Shown here piece by piece: positions 30,953 through 41,991 of a stretch of DNA of 64,000 bases. The DNA is from Porpolomopsis calyptriformis (lineage: Eukaryota; Basidiomycota; Agaricomycetes; Agaricales; Hygrophoraceae). The stretch spans positions 2,647,098-2,711,097 of the forward strand of contig OX621164.1 of the NCBI GenBank assembly GCA_951640195.1, given 5' to 3'. Every line of letters starts with the position of its first letter. Positions within the stretch are counted from its first letter, which is position 1. The notes below the pieces were generated by a model. The model was not told the origin of the DNA and ran no database searches. It saw only the letters and a program-made list of their open reading frames with translations. The position numbers and the translations under genes are program-made.

Positions 30953-33243
30953 ATGTCTGGACAGTCTCAAGTCCAATCTCAGTTTACACGCACCCCAGAC
31001 ATGATGCCCCTTCTGGGACAGAAGTCTGCTCCATCTAAGTTCAGTGGAAGCCATGAACAGATCAAGCGCTTCCTCAGACACTTTAATCAGTTATGTAAAG
31101 TTTACAATGTACCTGATGTGGAGAAGGGTGAACACCTCATTGACTACTGTTCTAGTAAAGTAGTCCAGTTAATTGAAGCCCTTGAAAGCTATAGGACCAA
31201 TGATTGGCCCAAGCTGGAAGCTGATCTCAATAGGTACTATGATGCTGCCTTAAAGGAAACTCGATACATTGTCAAAGACCTCCTCTCTTTCACTCGTAAG
31301 TGGAAGACTAGGCAAATCCATTCATTAACACGTTGGAAGAAGTATGAAAGAAGATTCATCACTATTGCAGGATGGCTACAAGCCAAGCAGAGAATCTCAG
31401 AAGACGAACAAGCTGCTTATTTCTGGAATGGAATTAACAAGACTCTCAGACAGGTGATTGAAGCCAGACTTATTAATGCTTCTGGAACCACCCCTCTGGA
31501 TGTTACTTCCCCATTCCCTATGAAGAAAGTAATCAAAGTAGCTGAAGTGTTATTTGAACGTAATCGGTTTGATATCAACCTAGCTGACTCTGACTCAGAT
31601 ATTCCTGGAAGGGATGATGAAACAGAGTCAGACACATCTAGTGATAACTCTTCATCATCTGACGAAGAAAGTGAAGTCGAAAGGAGACCTAGAAGGAAGA
31701 AGAAGAGTAATGGTAAGAAGTCCCATAAGAGCAGATGGGATTCTGATGATGAAGATCTCAAGAAACCCTTGAAGAAGACCAGTCAGAAGAAAGAAGATCA
31801 CAAGGGTAAGAAGGCATCTAGCAAGTCTACTACTCCAGTCCAAGATGAAGTAGAATCTCTTGTCAAAGAGATGGGAAAACTCTCCCTAGATGATTTACGC
31901 TATGGACTTGCCTACTATAAAGCCCTCAAACTTGATCCTGATATTGCTAGGTGTATCAAACCACCTACTCTTCGAGTATCTTCACCAAGATCTTCTATGC
32001 TTCCCTCTTCAAACACATTCCCTATATCCAATACTAGTCCTAGGAGTACTGGAGACACAATCACCTGTTATGGTTGTGGAAGTAAAGGACATGGAATGTC
32101 TAGTTGTCCCAAGATTGATGAACTCATTGCTTCAGGCACACTTATACGTGATGCAAATAGGAAGCTAGTATTCAAGAATGGTGCTTTTATTCGTCGACTC
32201 CCTGAAGAGACCTTTATCCAAGCTGTAGCAAGACTCACTCAAGACAAGACTAAACCCATCCAGACTCATTTCCTTACTCTGCAAAGTGATTGCTCAGATT
32301 ACTACCTGTCAGAACCTGAGTTTGACAAAGATGATTCAGGTGTATATGTAATCCCAGCCACTGAGTATGAGCCAGAAGTCCAGGATGAGGATGTACAAGT
32401 CATGGTAGCAGACAGAGTCCCTCACAAGATTACTACAGCTAGGAAGGAAGTATTTGATGGAGTCTATCCCCCTATGAAGTCCAGAACTAAAGGGAAAGAA
32501 AGCACAGCTGCTACCCAAGGTTCTCACCCATTCCCAAGCACTACACCTAAAGCTGCCCCCTTACGATTCCAAACTCATCTCCCAGATGAGGTACTGAAGC
32601 CTCATCACAACAAAGACTTTATTAAGGCACTGCCTACACCTGTTGATGCTAGAGTTAAACGAATTCCTCCCACAGAAATTAATAAAGATATTGACATGAA
32701 GGATATAACTAGAAAATCCAGAGCTAAACAGACTGCACCCCTACCCCAAGATACCACAGAATTAGCACCCCAAGTCTCTACTAAATCTCCAGTACGTCAA
32801 TCAGAAATATCCTCTACAATTGGTAACAACCAGGTAGTTAATCAGATTCTTAATACATCAGTTACCCTGAAAGTCAGAGAAGTCCTGGGATCATCCAAGG
32901 AAATATCTGATAAACTCTCAGAAATGATCAAAAGGAAGAATGTGAAGACTGCTGTTTTAGCTACTTCCTTTCTCACTAGAGACAGAGAGGAACTGATCAA
33001 GCTCCAGGTTGAATGTGATAAGCGCCCTGTATCTGCTATCATTGACACAGGTTCCCAATTGAATGTGGTTAGTAAGGATGCATGGAAATTAATCCTTCAG
33101 AGACCGAGGGACCTAACTAAGACGTTAGTTATGAATGATGCTAATGGAGGTGTAGGAACCCTTGCTGGATTGGTATCTAATGTCCCATTAACCTGTGGAG
33201 GTATTACTACCTATGCCAATCTCTTTATTGGGGAGTCAGTCCC
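30953..33243 (+). pseudogene. Outer element Gag-protease, truncated by the inner element
   Basis: The open frame starts at ATG 30953. Residues 1-220 form a Gag-like helical region. A Lys/Glu/Ser-rich linker follows. A CCHC zinc knuckle (CYGCGSKGHGMSSC) starts at residue 372. The C-terminal part contains a retropepsin active site, SAIIDTGSQLNVVSKDAW, with Asp at residue 698. At 33243 the frame runs into the LTR of the inner element and stops 14 codons later, so the end of the protease and all of reverse transcriptase are missing. The remaining reading frame has no stops or frameshifts, which fits recent disruption or continued use as a Gag donor. Confidence 0.88.
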
Positions 33244-33612
33244 TGTCACGGACATCTTTTTCCTTTTCCTCTTAGTCATACTTGATTAGTCTCTGTTCCG
33301 TCTATCCTTCCGTTTTACCATTCTATACATAGAGACTGATCACATGTACCTTCCTTCCGACTCTTCACGAGTCACATTCCGTTTCCGATATTCTTTTCGT
33401 GACTCTTCACCAGTCACATTCCGGATTCCGCTTTGTAATCGTACATACGACTGACTCATGGCGACTCAGGTAGTTAGTATATAAAGCCTGATTTCTAGTC
33501 AGTAGGTTAAGTTCGATTCCTAGTTAGCTCCCCCACTCTTTAGTCGAATTCCATTTCCTCATCAGCCCCTCCAACGCGAGAAGTAAAACCCTTCGACTAC
33601 CGAATCATAACA
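33244..33612 (+). repeat. 5' LTR of the inner chromovirus
   Basis: This 369-bp repeat matches 39556-39924 at a constant offset of 6312. It has TG and CA ends, several inverted GTGACT/AGTCAC pairs and TGACTC motifs, a TATA box at 33478-33485, and the sequence AAGTTCGATTC about 25 bases after it that complements the primer-binding site. Confidence 0.93.
33478..33485 (+). promoter_or_regulatory. TATA box of the inner LTR
   Basis: TATATAAA lies 24 bases before AAGTTCGATTC (33509), the predicted 5' end of the RNA if the element self-primes. The distance is right for a TATA-driven start. Confidence 0.65.
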
Positions 33613-33624
33613 AGAATCGAACTT
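33613..33624 (+). other. Self-priming type primer-binding site of the inner chromovirus
   Basis: The 11 bases GAATCGAACTT (33614-33624), one base after the 5' LTR, are the exact reverse complement of AAGTTCGATTC at 33509-33519 within the LTR, where the RNA should begin. In Tf1/sushi-type elements the first 11 nucleotides of the mRNA fold back to this site and prime reverse transcription. No tRNA-like TGG start is present. Confidence 0.72.
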
Positions 33625-33787
33625 CCTTCTTGCGCATCAAACCACTTCCACTCTGGATCCTGCTGAAGACTTAACAAGGTCAATCTTCTCATCTGCAGAT
33701 TCAGATACTCCCTTTCAACCAATAGTATTCCAAACCCCCGCACAATCCATCATCCCCCTTTCCCCCTCATCATCATCACTGACATCA

Positions 33788-35212
33788 ATGTCTCAACAAG
33801 AGTACGAAGCCGATCAATCCGTTCCCGCACCAGGACCCAGTAACATCCCCCCTACCATTCAAGAAGAAGAAGAAGACGTCGTCCCATTTAACATGGAACA
33901 AGAGCTCAGAGATTTGAGAGCACAAATCGACCAGTTCCGCGGTTGGTACTACAACGAAGTCGACGTCAATGACGAGCTCCGAAAGGAGCTGAAAGCTCTC
34001 AAAGAAAGTCGACACGAAGAATCTGAACCAACCACCCCTCCCCCACGACGACGATCTGTACTTCGGGGACCTGGACTTTCCCCCTCGAATCCTTTCGTTT
34101 ATCCCACAAGAAGAACCCAATCCGTCCAACCTCCATCCCAACCAACCTTTCCCACTCAACTACCCACCCAGACGACTGCTCCCCCCACACTTCCAGCCCC
34201 CACCAAAATCAAAATCGCCGATCCGACCGAGTATGATGGAACCTCCGAGAAGCTTGAAGACTTCATTCATCAATGTCGACTCAACTTTGTGGTCAAAGAC
34301 TACAACGATAAACAGAAGATCATCTATATGCTCTCCTACCTCGGTGACGGCAATCCACGGGCCTGGGGACGACTGTTCACAGAAGGAGCTGACAGGACGA
34401 GGAATTTCGTATGGGACTATGCAACATTTTTGGACGATTTCAGGGAAGCTTTCGGAAGGATCAACCCAGCGGCGAAGGCGCGGATCGAGCTAGAGAAAGT
34501 GAAGATGACAGGAACGATAGAAGACTACAACCTTCGGTTCATGCAACACGCAGCAAGAACTGAGTACAACGAGACCGCTCTACTTCGGTTTTACAAAGCC
34601 GGACTTCCCCAGCCGATCCGAACGCGGATCTACTCGATGGATAATATGCCGTCGACTTTGCTGGACTGGACGACGAAAGCGGCCCAGTTCGAGGAACAGT
34701 ACCAGGAACAACGAGCCGAACAAGCATTGTGGTCAAGTCGAGACCAAAAAGGAAAGAAGTCCGAAGCCAAATCGAGTCCACGAGGAAACCCTTCCCGCTC
34801 CATCACCACCACCACCACTTCATCCCCGATCAAACAAGAATCGAGAGAAGCCTCTCTCAAGACAGCGAAACGAGACAACTCCTCCATCACTTGCTACAAT
34901 TGTGGCAAAAAGGGACACTACGCCAACGAATGTCGAAGCCCACGTGCTGAAGACGTTCCGGCACGTCAAGAATCCTCAAACTCTACTCGAGGAAAAGGAG
35001 GAAATCGCGGTCGAGGCAAAGGACGGAATGTCCGAACGATCAATCGGGTCGATACAGAAGAATCAGAAGCGCGGATAGAAGAAGTACCAGAGGACGACGA
35101 AAAGGAAAAAAGGATGGCAAAGGACGACTTAAAGGATATGGGAATCGCAAATTGGAACAAGGAGAGACGGGCTGCGCTAGCTCGAGCGTTAAAAGAGCAA
35201 AAGGATTTTTAG
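33788..35212 (+). CDS. Gag of the inner chromovirus
   Basis: This 474-residue capsid/nucleocapsid protein has a proline-rich N-terminal third (TPPPRRRSVLRG), then a retrotransposon Gag core from about residue 140 (IADPTEYDGTSEKLEDFIHQ, YLGDGNPRAWGRLF). A CCHC knuckle (CYNCGKKGHYANEC) starts at residue 369, followed by a Gly-Arg-rich stretch. It is intact. The last 61 bases overlap the -1 frame of pol, and the stop codon follows a run of five T. The DNA is richer in C than the outer element. Confidence 0.92.
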   Translation: MSQQEYEADQSVPAPGPSNIPPTIQEEEEDVVPFNMEQELRDLRAQIDQFRGWYYNEVDVNDELRKELKALKESRHEESEPTTPPPRRRSVLRGPGLSPSNPFVYPTRRTQSVQPPSQPTFPTQLPTQTTAPPTLPAPTKIKIADPTEYDGTSEKLEDFIHQCRLNFVVKDYNDKQKIIYMLSYLGDGNPRAWGRLFTEGADRTRNFVWDYATFLDDFREAFGRINPAAKARIELEKVKMTGTIEDYNLRFMQHAARTEYNETALLRFYKAGLPQPIRTRIYSMDNMPSTLLDWTTKAAQFEEQYQEQRAEQALWSSRDQKGKKSEAKSSPRGNPSRSITTTTTSSPIKQESREASLKTAKRDNSSITCYNCGKKGHYANECRSPRAEDVPARQESSNSTRGKGGNRGRGKGRNVRTINRVDTEESEARIEEVPEDDEKEKRMAKDDLKDMGIANWNKERRAALARALKEQKDF

Positions 35213-38200
35213 TCCGGCCAAGTGCTAAAAGCCCGAGCACTTTGGCTGTGTCCCATGTATGTGTACCACCATCTATGAAAAGTTTTCGTTTTCTTGGCAC
35301 ACTTGAACAGGGCAAAGGCGCTCTCGAATTCTATCTTTGGATCACGAGTGCCGACAATCTTCGACGAGTGGCTATCATAGCACTCATTGACTCTGGCGCC
35401 TCAGGGAATTTTATTGACGAAGCATTCGTTCGTCAAATGGAGATATCGACCTATCTGTTGGATGAGGTTATACCGGTACGAAACGCTGATGGTTCCGAGA
35501 ACCGAGGAGGTCCCATCACGCACGATACAGACCTGTTTATTGAGGCACCAGATCTATCCTTTCGAGAACGAATCCGGTTGGAGGTCACCAACTTAGGAAA
35601 AAAGCAACAGGTCATCCTCGGCTTCCCATGGCTCTTGCGACACAACCCCACCATCAATTGGACAAAAGGCACCTTAACCTTTGCGTCTGGTGACACGCTG
35701 TTCAGTAGTATGCGAGTCGGAGTGTTGCCCCCACAGGAAGAACTCTACGTCTTCGATTCGAGTCTGAAACATGACTCCTTTATCCGTTTGGTCGGAGTTG
35801 ACCACTCCCGACCAGTTTCCATCGAGGAGGATATCAAATCCTTTATTCCCAGTCGTTATCACAATTTCTGGCGTGTTTTTCATACCGCAGAATTCGACAA
35901 GCTTCCTCCTCGACGTTCTTTTGATCATGCGATCAACCTCTATCCGAACACCAAATTTCAAGTCGGAAAACTCTATCCCCTTTCCCCCTATGAACAGGTG
36001 GAACTTAATAAGTTTGTTGACGAAAATCTCAGAACAGGTCGGATACGTCCATCGAAATCACCGCAAGCTGCTCCCTTCTTCTTTGCGAAAAAGGCTGAAG
36101 AGATCAATGCTAAAGGTCTCAGTGCTGGTCTACGTCCCATCCAGGACTATCGCTACATCAACTCAAAAACCATTCCTGATCGTTACCCCCTTCCCCTTCT
36201 ATCGGAAATCCTCCAAGTACCGAAGCTTGCTACTGCTTCACTCTTTACAGTCATCGATATTCGATGGGGATTTAACAACATACGACTCAAGGAAGGTGAC
36301 GAATGGAAAGCAGCTTTCATCACCAACCGAGGACTCTTCGAACCGACCGTTATGTTCTTTGGACTACGGAACTCCCCAGCATCTTTCCAACGAATGATAG
36401 ACGTTCTCTTTAAAACCGTTCTGGACTCTGGCTGTGTCCACATTTATATTGACGACATTCTCATCATGGGCGACACCCCCGAGGAAATCCGCCACTGGAC
36501 TGACGAAACCCTCAAGCTTATGGAGAAGAATCAACTATCCGCCAAACCCGTCAAATGCCAAATGGAGAAGACCTCTGTTACATACCTTGGTACAATCATC
36601 AGTAAAGGTCAACTCGCTATCAATCCAAAAAAGGTAGACGCCATCATCAATTGGCCGACACCCCAAAAGCTGCGAGACCTCCAGTCCTTCCTTGGCACCA
36701 CCAACTTCTGGCGTCGTTACATCAAAAGTTTCTCCTCAGTCGTTCGTCCCCTCTGTGGCCTTTTGCGGAAAGACCAACCTTGGGATTGGTCTCCCTTGTG
36801 TCAAAAAGCCTTTGAGCAACTCAAACATCTCGTCACTACAGCCCCTGTCCTTCTTACCCCGCGGCCAGACCTTCCTTACCTCTTGGAGACTGATGCCTCA
36901 GATTTCGGTATTGGCGCAGTCTTATCTCAGAAACACGACAACGGTTGGCACCCCGTTGGCTTTTTCTCAAAGTCTCTACTCCCTGCCGAGTACAACTATC
37001 CTACCCATGATCTGGAGATGCTTGCAATCGTCACTTCCCTCAAATATTGGCGTTATCTTTTAGAGGGCACAAGGGATACTGTGTTGATAAAGACGGACAA
37101 TTTAGCGCTCAAGTATTTTATGCAGAACAGATCCCTCTCCAGACGACAAGCACGTTGGATGGAATTCTTAGGCAGATTCGACTTCAAAATCGAGTATTCC
37201 CCTGGAGTCAAAAACAAAGCCGATGGACTCTCCCGCCGACCCGACCACCGTCATACAGAAAAAGAAGAATTAGAAGGCCAAGCCCTCCTCCCTCCCGAAC
37301 GTTTCATCAATGCTATCATTTCCATGTCCGAACCTTCCTTTATGTCAAGACTTCGCTTCCCCGACTTCAACGAAATCCCAGAGGACATTCGCATCAAGTT
37401 ATCCGATCCCTCTTCCGGCTACTCCTTCACTGACGGAATTGTGAGAGATGCAGGAGATCGTATTGTCGTGCCAGCAGACGTATTGCTACGCACAGAGATA
37501 ATTCGATTGACCCACTCCCTGCCCCATGGAGGCCATCCCGGAATCGAGAAGACACGTGAGCTTGTGTTGCGGAACTACACCTGGAGTAGTGCTGCCCCTG
37601 ACATCCGTGTATTCGTATCATCCTGTCCGACCTGCCAACAAGTCAAGCTCTATCCTTCAAAGCCTGCAGGTCTCCTGGAACCCATTCCCCCTTCGTCTCG
37701 ACCTTGGAAAGAAATCACCGCCGATCTAATCGTGGAACTCCCCCAATCATCTGGCTACGATGCTGTCTTAGTCGTTGTCGACCGCTTCACCAAGCGCGCT
37801 CACTTTATTCCGACGACATCAAATATTTCTGCAGAAGGAGTCGCAAAACTCTTCAGGGACAATGTATGGAAACACCACGGCTGGCCAAAGAAGATCATAA
37901 CCGATCGAGGAACTCAGTTCGCTTCCAAATTTGCGAAAGCTCTCAACACTCATTTGGGAATCATCTCCGGTCTATCTACCGCTTATCACCCCCAAACTGA
38001 TGGTCAAACGGAACGTACCAATCAAGAACTCGAACAATACCTTCGTTTGTATACAAACTTTATGCAAGACGATTGGTCCAACTGGCTATCCCCAGCTGAA
38101 TTCGCTTACAATAACCGACAGCACTCCTCGACGAAACACACTCCCTTTTACCTTGATACTGGCCAACATCCCTTCGTCCCACCTGTCCCTACGGCCCCTA

Positions 38201-38772
38201 CTTCCAACCCCGCAGCAGATACCTTCCACGATCATCTCACAGAAGCCCGTGAAGAAGCCACAAAAGCTCTAGAAACAGCGGCCGAAACCATGAAACGCTT
38301 CGCAGATCGCAAACGGAAAGATACCCAACTCCAAATAGGTCAATTTGTTTATCTTGATACTCGTAACTTAAAAACAGGTCGTCCAACCCTCAAACTTGAT
38401 GTCCGACGCACCGGACCGTTCAAAATTCTAGAAAAGATCGGAAAAGTCTCTTATCGCCTGGCCCTCCCCTTATCATGGAAAATACACGACGTCTTTCACG
38501 TTTCACTCCTGAGACCCGCTAACATTAACTCCGATCTCCACCCAGAGGAAGTAGATGATAATCTCCGTCCACCTCCGGATGTCATTCAAGAGAAAGAAGA
38601 ATATGAGGTCGAACAAATTCTCCAACATCACGGGTCCACCCGACGCCGTACGTATTTGGTCAAATGGGTCGGCTATCCCATTGAAGAAGCAACCTGGGAA
38701 CCGAAGAAGAACCTCCTCCATGCGAAAGAACGAATTCTAGAATACGAACAATCAATTCAAACGGCGACCTGA
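35152..38772 (+). CDS. Pol polyprotein with C-terminal chromodomain
   Basis: This 1206-codon frame begins with a non-ATG codon inside gag. Domains in order: protease with LIDSGASGNF (Asp 80); reverse transcriptase with QDYRYINSKTIPDRYPLP and YIDDILIMG (Tyr 432); RNase H with LETDASDFGIGAVLSQ (Asp 581); integrase zinc region around GHPGIEKTRELV and SCPTCQQVK; and integrase core with Asp 858, Asp 918 and Glu 954 (the D-D-35-E spacing). A GPF-type module (RRTGPFKILEKIG) follows. The chromodomain (residues 1151-1200) retains the three aromatic cage positions Tyr 1151, Trp 1172 and Tyr 1175, so it can plausibly bind methylated lysine 9 of histone H3. No catalytic residue is missing. Confidence 0.95.
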   Translation: MEQGETGCASSSVKRAKGFLVRPSAKSPSTLAVSHVCVPPSMKSFRFLGTLEQGKGALEFYLWITSADNLRRVAIIALIDSGASGNFIDEAFVRQMEISTYLLDEVIPVRNADGSENRGGPITHDTDLFIEAPDLSFRERIRLEVTNLGKKQQVILGFPWLLRHNPTINWTKGTLTFASGDTLFSSMRVGVLPPQEELYVFDSSLKHDSFIRLVGVDHSRPVSIEEDIKSFIPSRYHNFWRVFHTAEFDKLPPRRSFDHAINLYPNTKFQVGKLYPLSPYEQVELNKFVDENLRTGRIRPSKSPQAAPFFFAKKAEEINAKGLSAGLRPIQDYRYINSKTIPDRYPLPLLSEILQVPKLATASLFTVIDIRWGFNNIRLKEGDEWKAAFITNRGLFEPTVMFFGLRNSPASFQRMIDVLFKTVLDSGCVHIYIDDILIMGDTPEEIRHWTDETLKLMEKNQLSAKPVKCQMEKTSVTYLGTIISKGQLAINPKKVDAIINWPTPQKLRDLQSFLGTTNFWRRYIKSFSSVVRPLCGLLRKDQPWDWSPLCQKAFEQLKHLVTTAPVLLTPRPDLPYLLETDASDFGIGAVLSQKHDNGWHPVGFFSKSLLPAEYNYPTHDLEMLAIVTSLKYWRYLLEGTRDTVLIKTDNLALKYFMQNRSLSRRQARWMEFLGRFDFKIEYSPGVKNKADGLSRRPDHRHTEKEELEGQALLPPERFINAIISMSEPSFMSRLRFPDFNEIPEDIRIKLSDPSSGYSFTDGIVRDAGDRIVVPADVLLRTEIIRLTHSLPHGGHPGIEKTRELVLRNYTWSSAAPDIRVFVSSCPTCQQVKLYPSKPAGLLEPIPPSSRPWKEITADLIVELPQSSGYDAVLVVVDRFTKRAHFIPTTSNISAEGVAKLFRDNVWKHHGWPKKIITDRGTQFASKFAKALNTHLGIISGLSTAYHPQTDGQTERTNQELEQYLRLYTNFMQDDWSNWLSPAEFAYNNRQHSSTKHTPFYLDTGQHPFVPPVPTAPTSNPAADTFHDHLTEAREEATKALETAAETMKRFADRKRKDTQLQIGQFVYLDTRNLKTGRPTLKLDVRRTGPFKILEKIGKVSYRLALPLSWKIHDVFHVSLLRPANINSDLHPEEVDDNLRPPPDVIQEKEEYEVEQILQHHGSTRRRTYLVKWVGYPIEEATWEPKKNLLHAKERILEYEQSIQTAT
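35203..35212 (+). promoter_or_regulatory. Candidate -1 ribosomal frameshift site at the gag stop
   Basis: Gag ends GAT TTT TAG. Slipping one base back on the T run gives TTT TTA and continues into pol. The pol frame is open from 35152 with no good ATG before conserved sequence, so a frameshift at or near the stop is the simplest way to make Gag-Pol. Confidence 0.5.
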
Positions 38773-38896
38773 TCACTCTTTCACGGTATCAACTCCCCTC
38801 GTTTATATTTTCACTTTTGTCACCTTTTCCAAACTCCGACTCTTCCTTATAATCTCTTTCGTCTCCGTCTTTCACTCTCAAGAAATCGATCTCGCT
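38773..38896 (+). promoter_or_regulatory. Pyrimidine-rich leader before the third ORF
   Basis: 124 bases separate pol from the third ORF. They are unusually rich in C and T, like leaders around basidiomycete transcription starts. This may be the promoter or leader of a separate short mRNA, but no TATA box is present. Confidence 0.35.
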
Positions 38897-39475
38897 ATGC
38901 CCGCCGAACGCTCACATCAAACTGCCCGCAAGTCTACTGGTGGTCGTCCACCCCGCACTCCTCGCATGTCCACTGGAGGGCAACCCCCTCGTCGCGCCCC
39001 CCCTCCGCTCGCTTCCACCTCCTCCGCTTACGGTGAAGCCGAGCTCGCCGGACAACTCTGGCAGCACAACCGTCGCGCACGAAATCGAGACCTTCCCATA
39101 TGGCCAGAGGAAATCGTCGCTCCACCTATCCCGCCCGAGCAGATCATCGAGTCGCTGCAGAAAGATATCGATTATTACAAGAACGAGATCGCAAGACTAA
39201 ACGAAGAATTGTACAACCAAGGAATGAGTTTGGACGGAAAGAGAAGAGCGAGTGAGTACTGGCGGGAGCAGGCCAAACACTGGGAGGCGAAGTACGAGGA
39301 AGTCACAAAGGTACTTCCCCATCTTGATTCTCCAGTTCCCCCTGTTTTCCCGGGTCCACTCATCGTCCCCCCCGGTTCGTCGTCGAACCCCATCACCATC
39401 CCCGACGACGGCGATATTTCCCCGGTCGACATTATTTCCCTGTCGACCATCGCCTCCAACAAGGACTCAATCTAG
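38897..39475 (+). CDS. Third ORF of the chromovirus: histone H3 tail-like N-terminus plus coiled coil
   Basis: This 192-residue protein sits where envelope genes lie in retroviruses but shows no signal peptide or membrane segment. Residues 4-20 align without gaps to histone H3 residues 1-17: 12 identities, including the full run QTARKSTGG. The K4 and K14 positions are His and Arg, leaving only the K9-equivalent Lys 12. Residues 21-32 (TPRMSTGGQPPR) repeat the pattern with Met 24 at the K9 position. Next come a Pro/Arg/Ser linker, the segment PPEQIIESLQKDIDYYKNEI, and a helical block with EYWREQAKHWEAKYEE. The tail is proline-rich (PGPLIVPPGSSSNP). A diverged copy (39925-40356) and a distant homologue (41470-41991) show that the C-terminal two thirds define a family. 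Function is unknown. Confidence 0.85.
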   Translation: MPAERSHQTARKSTGGRPPRTPRMSTGGQPPRRAPPPLASTSSAYGEAELAGQLWQHNRRARNRDLPIWPEEIVAPPIPPEQIIESLQKDIDYYKNEIARLNEELYNQGMSLDGKRRASEYWREQAKHWEAKYEEVTKVLPHLDSPVPPVFPGPLIVPPGSSSNPITIPDDGDISPVDIISLSTIASNKDSI

Positions 39476-39539
39476 TCCTTCCCCTCCTCCACACCCTTCA
39501 ACACTCTCGAAGCCGCCTCGAATTTCGGGACGAAATTCC

Positions 39540-39555
39540 TTTTAGTGTGGGTGTA
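39540..39555 (+). other. Candidate plus-strand primer (polypurine-type tract) of the inner chromovirus
   Basis: The sequence TTTTAGTGTGGGTGTA directly precedes the 3' LTR, after a GGGACGAAATTCC segment. Similar arrangements precede the 3' LTR of other chromoviruses. It is G-rich but not purely purine. Confidence 0.45.
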
Positions 39556-39924
39556 TGTCACGGACATCTTTTTCCTTTTCCTCTTAGTCATACTTGATTA
39601 GTCTCTGTTCCGTCTATCCTTCCGTTTTACCATTCTATACATAGAGACTGATCACATGTACCTTCCTTCCGACTCTTCACGAGTCACATTCCGTTTCCGA
39701 TATTCTTTTCGTGACTCTTCACCAGTCACATTCCGGATTCCGCTTTGTAATCGTACATACGACTGACTCATGGCGACTCAGGTAGTTAGTATATAAAGCC
39801 TGATTTCTAGTCAGTAGGTTAAGTTCGATTCCTAGTTAGCTCCCCCACTCTTTAGTCGAATTCCATTTCCTCATCAGCCCCTCCAACGCGAGAAGTAAAA
39901 CCCTTCGACTACCGAATCATAACA
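39556..39924 (+). repeat. 3' LTR of the inner chromovirus
   Basis: This repeats 33244-33612; I found no difference by reading. It is followed at once by ORF3-like sequence of an older copy rather than by outer-element DNA. Confidence 0.93.
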
Positions 39925-40356
39925 GCCGAGCTTGTCGGACAACTCTGGCAGCATAACCGCCGCGCGCGAAACCGGGCCCTCTCCGTTTGGCCTGAAGAAA
40001 TCAATGCACCACCTATCCCTCCCGAGCAAATCATCGAGTCATTAAAGAAAGATGTTGACTATCACAAGGCCGAGATCGTAAGGTTGAATGAGGAGTTGTA
40101 TAATCAGTGGTCAGAGTTAGACCAAGAGAGAAGAGTGAGCCGACACTGGAGAGAACAAGCCAAATATTGGGAGGCGAAACACAAGGAAGTTGCAAAGGTA
40201 CTTCCCCATCTCAATTCTCCTGCTCCACCCATTTTCCCCGGTCCACTCATTGTCCCTACTGGTTCATCGTCGAACCCCATCACCATCCCCGATGACGACT
40301 TTCTTTCCCCAGTTGACATTACTTCCCTGTCAACAACTATTCCCAACAAGGACTAA
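39925..40356 (+). pseudogene. 3' part of the third ORF from an older chromovirus copy
   Basis: The frame resumes immediately after the 3' LTR as AELVGQLWQHNRRARNR and stays open to the stop at 40354-40356. It is homologous to residues 48-192 of the intact third ORF. The N-terminal H3-like part is absent because the newer element starts here. Most differences from the newer copy are third-codon-position changes. The reading frame, the WREQAKYWEAK helix and the PGPLIVP-GSSSNPITIPDD tail are kept, indicating that the protein was under selection before this copy was broken. Confidence 0.8.
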
Positions 40357-40443: not shown

Positions 40444-40539
40444 TGTCATGGATGTATTTTTCTTTTTCTTTTTAGTCAGACATGATTAGTCTCTTATCCG
40501 TTTACCCTTCTACTTTACCAATGTATATACAGAGACTGA
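40444..40539 (+). repeat. Truncated 3' LTR of the older chromovirus copy
   Basis: About 96 bases are clearly related to the start of the inner LTR (TGTCATGGAT against TGTCACGGAC, ending AGAGACTGA) but with many substitutions. It stops abruptly where outer-element integrase sequence resumes, so the rest of this LTR was deleted. Confidence 0.75.
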
Positions 40540-41321
40540 ATATACCCCAAGTTTGGATCTCCCCATATAACAAGCATGCTAATGGAGTTGTGGAACATGG
40601 TCACTTCACGTTACGAGAGGCTATTGTCAAGTCAAGTGACAAAGATAAATTTGGAAGGATCAGAAACTGGCACAAACAGGTGGAGATAGCAGCCTTTGCT
40701 GACCGAGTTACAGTCAGTAGTGTTACAGGATATTCCCCATATTATCTCCTTCATGGAATGCATCCCTTATTACCCTTTGATCTTGCAGAAGCTACCTTCA
40801 TGGTTGAGGGTTTCCAATCAGGATTATCAACCTCTGATCTCCTTGCCCTGAGGATTAGACAGCTAGAACGACATCAAGAAGATATTGACAAAGCTGCTGA
40901 AACTCTAAAGAAAGCTCGTTTCAAGTCTAAGCAACAGTTTGAACACCGTTTCAGGAAGCGTCTCATCAGAAGATATTATAGACCAGGAGAACTAGTCCTT
41001 GTCAGAAATAGCCGATTAGAATCTACCTTAGGAAGGCTCAAGACAGAACCAAGGTACCTTGGCCCATATAAGGTAGCCAAGAGAACGACAAGAGGAGCCT
41101 ACATCCTCCAGGAACTGGATGGAGCCGAACATGCGGAACATTATGCTGCATTCCGCTTACTCCCCTATGTATATCGAGATAGCCCTACCCTATATAGATT
41201 ATCCCATGATGATGAGATTGCTGATGGGCAAACAGCTTCCGAGGACTCCGATCATCGATCAGAACCCAGCGATCTGGACACTGATATTGAAATGGGAAGT
41301 TTAAGTAATGAGACTCCCTAA
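40540..41321 (+). pseudogene. Integrase C-terminal remnant of the outer element
   Basis: The frame gives ISPYNKHANGVVEHGHFTLR (end of the integrase core with its last acidic residue), VTGYSPYYLLHGMHPLLPFD, a helical linker with LALRIRQLERHQEDI, and a GPY-type module (PRYLGPYKVAKRTTRGAYIL). It ends with an acidic tail at 41321. The family is a Ty3-type integrase different from that of the inner element and without a chromodomain. The upstream integrase, RNase H and reverse transcriptase are gone. The first residues of the open frame come from the truncated LTR. Confidence 0.87.
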
Positions 41322-41469: not shown

Positions 41470-41991
41470 ATGTCGACACCCTATTCCGCTGAAGCACAAC
41501 GCCAATGGTTCAACTGGGACCAGGCAAACCCAAACAACCAAGCCACGTCCAGCAACCTCCCCCCACCTACGACACACGTACTGCTGCCCCCACCTCTCAC
41601 TGCCTACGATTGCCATAACCCCCACCAACCCCTTTATACCCTCATGCCTGCAATGGATGAGGCACCAGCTAATCCGTCAAAGGACGAAATCATCGCGACC
41701 CTACTTAGGGATCGACATCAGCAAGACGTGTACCTTCGGAAGCTTGAGAGCGAGCTCTTTGAGCTCAACGGCAAACTTGTAGGGCAGGAGCTAGCACTAC
41801 GTTCAAGGGCGGAAATGATTGAGTATTGGATGGATCAAGCTACATACTGGGAGTCTAGGTATGTAACAGCATATGGGCAAAGCGCGTTCATCCCATCTAT
41901 TCCCCCCCTTCCCCCCAATGTCATTATCCCTCCTTCATCTCTCATTGGTGCCAATGGCCCCATGGAGGAAGAACCCTTAGATAGGGAGTAG
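41470..41991 (+). CDS. Third ORF of the outer element, distant homologue of the chromovirus ORF3
   Basis: This 173-residue protein lies downstream of integrase, after a CT-rich leader (41322-41469). The core contains IEYWMDQATYWESRY, matching the EYWREQAKHWEAKY block of the inner element's ORF3. It is preceded by a similar helical stretch (DRHQQDVYLRKLESELFELN) and followed by a similar proline-rich tail (PPNVIIPPSS). The N-terminus is different, with no histone-like sequence (begins MSTPYSAEAQRQW). It is intact. No membrane segment is present, so it is not an envelope protein. Its retention in a gutted element suggests selection on the protein or recent damage. Confidence 0.65.
   Translation: MSTPYSAEAQRQWFNWDQANPNNQATSSNLPPPTTHVLLPPPLTAYDCHNPHQPLYTLMPAMDEAPANPSKDEIIATLLRDRHQQDVYLRKLESELFELNGKLVGQELALRSRAEMIEYWMDQATYWESRYVTAYGQSAFIPSIPPLPPNVIIPPSSLIGANGPMEEEPLDRE

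Follow-up and report, generated by a model that had tools for sequence, protein, structure and literature searches.

The window analyzed here (64,000 nucleotides of contig C2 in a 33.5-Mb, 17-contig assembly of Porpolomopsis calyptriformis) contains a Ty3/gypsy chromovirus at positions 33244-39924, in which LTRs enclose gag, pol and a third open reading frame, ORF3 (Table 1). The element has the features of its class, i.e., LTRs, a gag with a CCHC zinc knuckle, the order protease, reverse transcriptase, RNase H and integrase, and a chromodomain at the integrase C-terminus. Since the two LTRs are exactly identical, the insertion is recent. On one side the element is bordered by a gag-protease ORF, truncated and from another family, and on the other by what is left of the ORF3 of a related element (30953-33289 and 39925-40353). 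With both neighbors, and with no target-site duplication found at its flanks, it is a composite or recombined insertion. In an alignment of the chromodomain with those of the HP1 family and related ones whose structures are solved, it has Tyr, Trp and Tyr at the places of the aromatic-cage residues, which are named Y24, W45 and Y48 in PMC3350952.

Table 1. Features of the chromovirus, its third reading frame and a neighboring relative (positions in the window)
Feature	Position	Strand	Basis or remark
5' LTR, 369 bp	33244..33612	+	exact 369-bp direct repeat with 39556-39924
gag, Ty3 capsid and CCHC zinc knuckle	33788..35212	+	PF19259 E 2.9e-9, PF00098 E 1.1e-6
pol: protease, RT, RNase H, integrase, chromodomain	35152..38772	+	RVP_2, RVT_1, RT_RNaseH, Integrase_H2C2, rve, Chromo
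Integrase C-terminal chromodomain, Y/W/Y at aromatic-cage places	38602..38751	+	PF00385 E 7e-13; alignment with chromodomains of known structure
ORF3, 192 aa: Arg-rich tail predicted to be unstructured, predicted helical middle part resembling a coiled coil, acidic C-terminus	38897..39475	+	frame translation; low-confidence single-sequence model
QTARKSTGG, identical to H3 5-13	38918..38944	+	ORF3 residues 8-16; Lys12 codon 38930-38932 corresponds to K9
Repeat unit 1, TARKSTGGRPPR	38921..38956	+	ORF3 residues 9-20
Repeat unit 2, TPRMSTGGQPPR	38957..38992	+	ORF3 residues 21-32; Met24 (38966-38968) at K9 position
3' LTR	39556..39924	+	exact 369-bp direct repeat with 33244-33612
Relative of ORF3 in another element family, with a similar coiled-coil region	41470..41991	+	29-31% identity to ORF3; E 4e-6 in genome search

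ORF3 lies 124 bases downstream of the pol stop, and the encoded protein begins with MPAERSHQTARKSTGGRPPR (in a longer stretch, MPAERSHQTARKSTGGRPPRTPRMSTGGQPPRRAP...). The original prediction aligned ORF3 residues 4-20 with residues 1-17 of histone H3, and on re-reading the alignment holds: R5, the nine residues QTARKSTGG (8-16), P19 and R20 match, giving 12 of 17 identities. Its start coordinate does not, as residue 4 begins at 38906 and 38909 is the start of residue 5. Also confirmed was the claim that the equivalents of K4 and K14 are replaced while the K9 equivalent, Lys12, is kept as the sole lysine of the tail; there is no other lysine before residue 89. ORF3 matched no Pfam family above the curated cut-off and no histone family. 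A low-confidence model from the single sequence (mean pLDDT 55.5) predicts helices at residues 46-63, 80-107 and 112-142 and an unstructured stretch at residues 1-45. When the whole protein was searched against solved structures, 59 of the best 60 of 129 matched chains were H3, H3 peptides or Cse4; the matches are individually weak (best E 0.084) because a short stretch alone aligns.

The H3-like motif is part of a tandem repeat of 12 residues, a feature new relative to the original prediction. The units TARKSTGGRPPR and TPRMSTGGQPPR are identical at 9 of 12 amino acids and 25 of 36 nucleotides, and none of 20000 shuffles did as well. In the second unit, a methionine occupies the position of K9.

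A degenerate DNA pattern coding for QTARKSTGG had 70 matches in the assembly, and the reversed pattern had none. Three of these matches are host H3 genes, and the other 67 lie within 200 bases of ORF3 matches, proximity being judged against 106 of the 108 matches to the ORF3 family. These 108, in which fragments are counted singly, come from a genome search with ORF3 residues 45-192 that had 126 matches in all, the remaining 18 being distant ORF3 sequences (30-36% identity). N-termini were read for 87 of the 108 matches. Copies with at least 180 residues were called open (58 of the 87); a stop is visible in 53, and the other five (L093, L094, L095, L099 and L100) show no stop up to where the retrieved sequence ends. 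QTARKSTGG is exact in 48 of the 58 open copies, so that the motif is present in intact copies elsewhere in the genome, where its absence had been named in the original prediction as the result that would speak against a mimic. The ten inexact copies carry an Arg to His (six), Arg to Cys (one) or Gly to Ser (three) replacement. Lys12 is present in all 58 open copies and, among the 87 that were read, is missing from L103 and L106 alone (85 of 87). Within residues 1-80, the 58 open copies have 5-11 arginines, and 54 of them have exactly one lysine; the other basic residues vary, but this lysine is retained. A divergent subfamily (L093 and L094), with 77% identity over the rest of the protein, keeps QTARKSTGGRPPR in changed flanks (MPAERIQHHSQTARKSTGGRPPRTSHMSTERQPLHY). 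The methionine of the second repeat is likewise found in all 58 open copies, preceded by Arg in 30 and by His in 28.

Among the ORF3 copies L051-L107, the older ones decay mainly by CpG transitions, which turn Arg into His or Cys. DNA-methylase matches at six places in the genome are in keeping with this decay, and together they are signs of cytosine methylation of these elements.

Since many copies decay in this way, CpG-type changes were set apart when substitutions were counted by parsimony on the internal branches of the copy tree. The tree held 83 of the 87 copies; L103, L105, L106 and L107, whose N-termini are broken or poorly alignable, were left out. Outside CpG sites, the motif has 0 amino-acid-changing (N) and 13 silent (S) changes, compared with 138 N and 248 S in the rest of ORF3 (one-sided Fisher P 0.0036; 133 N and 247 S for the rest in a recount with another tie rule). 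With CpG-type changes included, the counts are 3 N and 20 S against 285 N and 399 S elsewhere in ORF3 (P 0.0038), the three CpG-type losses falling on the equivalents of R8 (two) and A7 (one). About 71% N would be expected for the motif under neutrality (P about 1e-7), and the remainder of ORF3 has an omega of about 0.2. Among 184 nine-residue windows, 11 are free of amino-acid changes, and 0 N with at least 13 S occurs only for windows starting at residues 8-11. A tree built without the motif gave an unchanged result. Terminal branches, which mostly represent dead copies, carry amino-acid changes in the motif, 7 of them non-CpG and 12 CpG-type. All counts come from one genome, and because copies may recombine, the silent events are not fully independent. 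By these counts, ORF3 is a real gene with the motif as its most constrained part, and the H3-like motif seems to be maintained by selection. The second repeat is under weaker constraint, with 7 N and 10 S and an omega near 0.35. Its R8 codon shows six internal-branch CpG-type changes versus two at the R8 codon of the first repeat. Both observations count against a K9M-like reading as a general function of the protein.

We also searched for the motif beyond this family, as the original prediction had proposed for the ORF3s of basidiomycete chromoviruses. The stretches following six other chromodomains in this genome (L113-L118) were checked, and one, L114 (C12:1502697), contains ARKSTG. It belongs to a chromovirus whose chromodomain sequence differs from that of the first family. 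Its frame after pol, MPRQVLYARKSTGRRPPRGNPTASTSNLPP..., ends after 45 residues (L114:286-420; C12:1502982-1503116) and can be aligned with ORF3 at ARKSTGGRPPR/ARKSTGRRPPR and a short way beyond (15 of 23, E 3e-5), the rest being hardly alignable. This second family, which is new relative to the original prediction, is high-copy: the 45 residues have 112 genome matches, of which 22 are stop-free in frames of at least 200 residues. Its frame after pol begins MPRQVLYARKSTGRRPPR and has ARKSTG and RPPR in common with ORF3. In many copies stops interrupt this frame, whereas other copies have it in a long form (243 aa). The pattern ARKSTG-x-RPP had 95 matches in the genome and none when reversed. 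The first family accounts for 56 and the second for 39, the latter composed of 25 at the first 40 places examined and 14 at further places among the 112; the whole pattern is present in 11 of the 22 long-frame matches. The second family keeps A7-G12, P16 and R17 of H3 without Q5, T6 and G13, and both families have RPPR where H3 has KAPR. The methionine of repeat 2 is absent from the single second-family copy read. These data support ARKSTG as a lasting feature of such tails and show that the conserved unit is not purely H3, RPPR belonging to it too. ARKSTG in the two families reflects either shared origin or exchange of a segment between them.

Other elements do without the motif. The relationship between ORF3 and the ORF at 41470-41991 is seen in the middle part of the latter. 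This ORF belongs to a family with 18 genome matches and follows an integrase end, the order being that of the chromovirus, but it has no H3-like tail, and a Pfam search of the integrase end preceding it (40482-41321) gave no chromodomain match. In L113 (C2:508333-509156, 1-824), the chromodomain is similar to that of the first family (28 of the first 37 residues identical), and an ORF of 161 residues in the same place starts with MPATRSTRSPSPQ; its homology to ORF3 is doubtful (E 0.16). The L113 element is apparently multi-copy, as several chromodomain-search scores are equal. An H3-like motif is absent after pol in L113 and in L115-L118. Searches of protein databases with ORF3 alone (157 candidates) or with a seven-sequence alignment (2526 candidates) gave no relative at E 0.01, and a QTARKSTGG coding pattern had three DNA matches in viral contigs, none of which translates to QTARKSTGG.

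With regard to the host, the genome has one Pre-SET gene, followed by a SET exon, whose best five matches among solved structures are H3K9-specific methyltransferases including Clr4 (E 4e-12 to 9e-12). By these matches, the host has a Clr4-like gene, and the pathway that the mimic would target is present. A chromo-shadow search of the genome gave nothing at E 0.001, with the controls silent as well; one weak place, C5:771038, reached E 1.21 and 23.8 bits with its neighbors (cut-off 22.4). In the Chromo search, 150 of 718 candidates were scored, with host genes and element copies pooled. A host HP1 is likely. HP1 chromodomains contact approximately Q5-S10 of H3, and SUV39-type enzymes also contact T11 and G12.

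In the sense of an H3-tail motif in a non-histone protein beyond chance, ORF3 is an H3-tail mimic. This part of the original prediction stands, on the 12 of 17 identities, the 48 of 58 copies, the constraint and the ARKSTG of the second family; expression of ORF3, methylation of Lys12, binding and a decoy effect are what we infer beyond it. Our preferred reading, offered tentatively, is that the tail is a selected H3K9-tail mimic and that it interacts, probably in the role of a decoy, with the machinery for H3K9 methylation in the host. ORF3 would then be an accessory protein carrying an H3 K9 epitope tail on a coiled-coil-like body. A Clr4-type enzyme would bind and methylate Lys12, chromodomains that bind H3K9me would bind the methylated tail, and ORF3 would compete with nucleosomal H3, weakening silencing. 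The K9M-like second repeat may add a non-methylatable bait. According to the accessible parts of the respective reports, an H3K9M tail acts on Clr4 as an inhibitor in vitro and as a trap in fission yeast (PMC5030085), and the binding of Cbx3 to methylated H1K26 and G9aK185 is about as good as that to H3K9me3 (PMC3325965), which implies that K9-like motifs outside H3 can be read. Those two sites belong to host chromatin proteins, whereas ORF3 belongs to a parasite. Given the heavy CpG decay of older copies, any anti-silencing would not last.

A possible alternative, to which we give less weight, is that the tail is a docking tag: methylated Lys12 would be bound by the chromodomain of the element's integrase or by host HP1, and ORF3 would tether replication intermediates to heterochromatin or regulate integrase targeting rather than titrate an enzyme. 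The Y/W/Y cage of the element chromodomain fits this proposal, as does the binding of H3K9me2/3 by the chromodomain of another fungal element, MAGGY (PMC3350952, accessible text). Both ARKSTG families carry a chromodomain, while the motif-less 41470-41991 family has no chromodomain match in the preceding integrase end. However, L113 combines a similar chromodomain with a frame lacking the motif, so docking is no general need of such chromodomains, and the constrained core of the first family extends past the chromodomain footprint, while the second family keeps the part around the lysine without Q5 and T6. For these three reasons we rank the decoy first. The second family leaves the balance between decoy and docking unchanged, because it supports ARKSTG and yet reveals a non-H3 part of the unit.

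It is rather unlikely that the tail serves some other need, as a phosphorylation site (ARKS is also the context of H3S10), as a basic nuclear or nucleic-acid-binding tail with an ARKSTG-x-RPPR unit, or as a mimic of the centromeric histone. The abundance of arginine in the tail and the RPPR shared by both families and absent from H3 would suit such uses, and the tail of the host's centromeric-histone-like protein, GTARKSSGGRAPR, matches ORF3 at 10 of 13 positions including the Arg at position 14 (H3 at 11 of 13). On the other hand, a generic basic tail requires no exact identity over nine residues, the longest identity is with H3, and the one lysine persists where other basic residues have been replaced. 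Also unlikely is an elaboration of the decoy into a two-part trap, in which the K9 substrate QTARKSTGG and the tandem K9M-like bait PRMSTGG, multimerized through the coiled coil, would locally sequester Clr4 and HP1-type readers and delay silencing. The trap is made less probable by the second family, which keeps ARKSTG without Met. If true, it would represent an oncohistone-like inhibitor evolved by a retroelement against its own silencing pathway.

The origin of the motif bears on a further explanation, that the tail is a functionless fragment which the element took up from a host H3 gene. In the commonest ORF3 haplotype, 24 of the 27 bases agree with one H3 gene (simulated P 0.107 with element codon usage), and in another haplotype 25 of 27 agree with a second H3 gene (P 0.021, a value flattered by choosing the best haplotype). 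In all three host H3 genes an intron interrupts codon G13, and one of the genes (L040 1150-1650; C2:3412913) has a 25-base exon that is exactly QTARKSTG plus one base. Capture of the motif from an H3 gene is weakly suggested. A mere passenger is very improbable, as both the ratio of 0 N to 13 S in the motif and the recurrence of ARKSTG in another family argue against neutrality, and capture and function are compatible in any case. Chance resemblance, which the shortness of the motif and the weak best structural match might suggest, is ruled out for practical purposes by the genome counts (70 versus 0 and 95 versus 0 for the patterns and their reversals), the near-exclusive matching of H3-type chains in the structure search (59 of the best 60 of 129) and a constraint centered on the motif.

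Gene conversion from host H3 was considered and rejected. A haplotype with TCA at Ser13 (19 of 87 copies) is identical to the L039 H3 gene at 22-25 of 27 bases, but of its 21 differences from the nearest other haplotype only three lie within the motif (P 0.07), two of them at CpG sites. The gene that we call centromeric-histone-like is located at C1:1282166-1282605 (G000; L043, L045 and L047) and encodes the tail GTARKSSGGRAPRR.

Viruses and a small number of host proteins are known to mimic histones. Among the open-access papers listed for this question, none presents a retrotransposon or other retroelement with an H3-tail mimic, which is not proof of its absence in print. The following comparisons refer to the accessible parts of the cited articles. 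Influenza NS1 and SARS-CoV-2 ORF8 (ARKS) are, like ORF3, non-histone proteins of parasites with a short H3-tail motif (PMC10208167), although the ORF8 mimic is disputed (PMC10833455). ORF3 differs from them in having nine contiguous identical residues near the N-terminus, in belonging to an LTR retrotransposon with about a hundred genomic copies, and in its measured constraint. EZHIP, a K27M-like inhibitor of PRC2, resembles repeat 2 of ORF3, (A/T)P(R/H)MSTGG, in that Met replaces the target lysine in an H3-like context (PMC12713659). EZHIP, however, is a mammalian host gene and concerns K27, whereas ORF3 belongs to a retroelement, concerns the K9 context and has an intact K9 copy beside the Met copy. 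With H1K26 and G9aK185, ORF3 shares an H3K9-like site in a non-H3 protein, bound in their case by a chromodomain once methylated (PMC3325965). The VANC proteins of Arabidopsis VANDAL transposons provide transposon-encoded counter-silencing of the kind proposed for ORF3 (PMC10398659, PMC5735166), but they are sequence-specific anti-silencing proteins, and histone mimicry is not mentioned for them in the accessible text. The architecture of the present element is also that of fungal Ty3/gypsy chromoviruses on record that carry an extra ORF whose function is unknown (PMC2864245), and the accessible part of that report mentions no H3 motif.

If the proposed role of ORF3 is true, elements that read H3K9me via their integrase also display the K9 substrate itself. 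A single small protein would then allow the arms race between heterochromatin and transposons to be tested in fission yeast, and the natural pair of K9 and K9M-like peptides would serve as a probe of H3K9 enzymes.

At the other end of the protein, ORF3 residues 165-183 (39389-39445) read PITIPDDGDISPVDIISLS, which we take to resemble a SUMO-interaction motif. DIISLS or NIISLS is found there in 51 of the 53 copies with a visible end.
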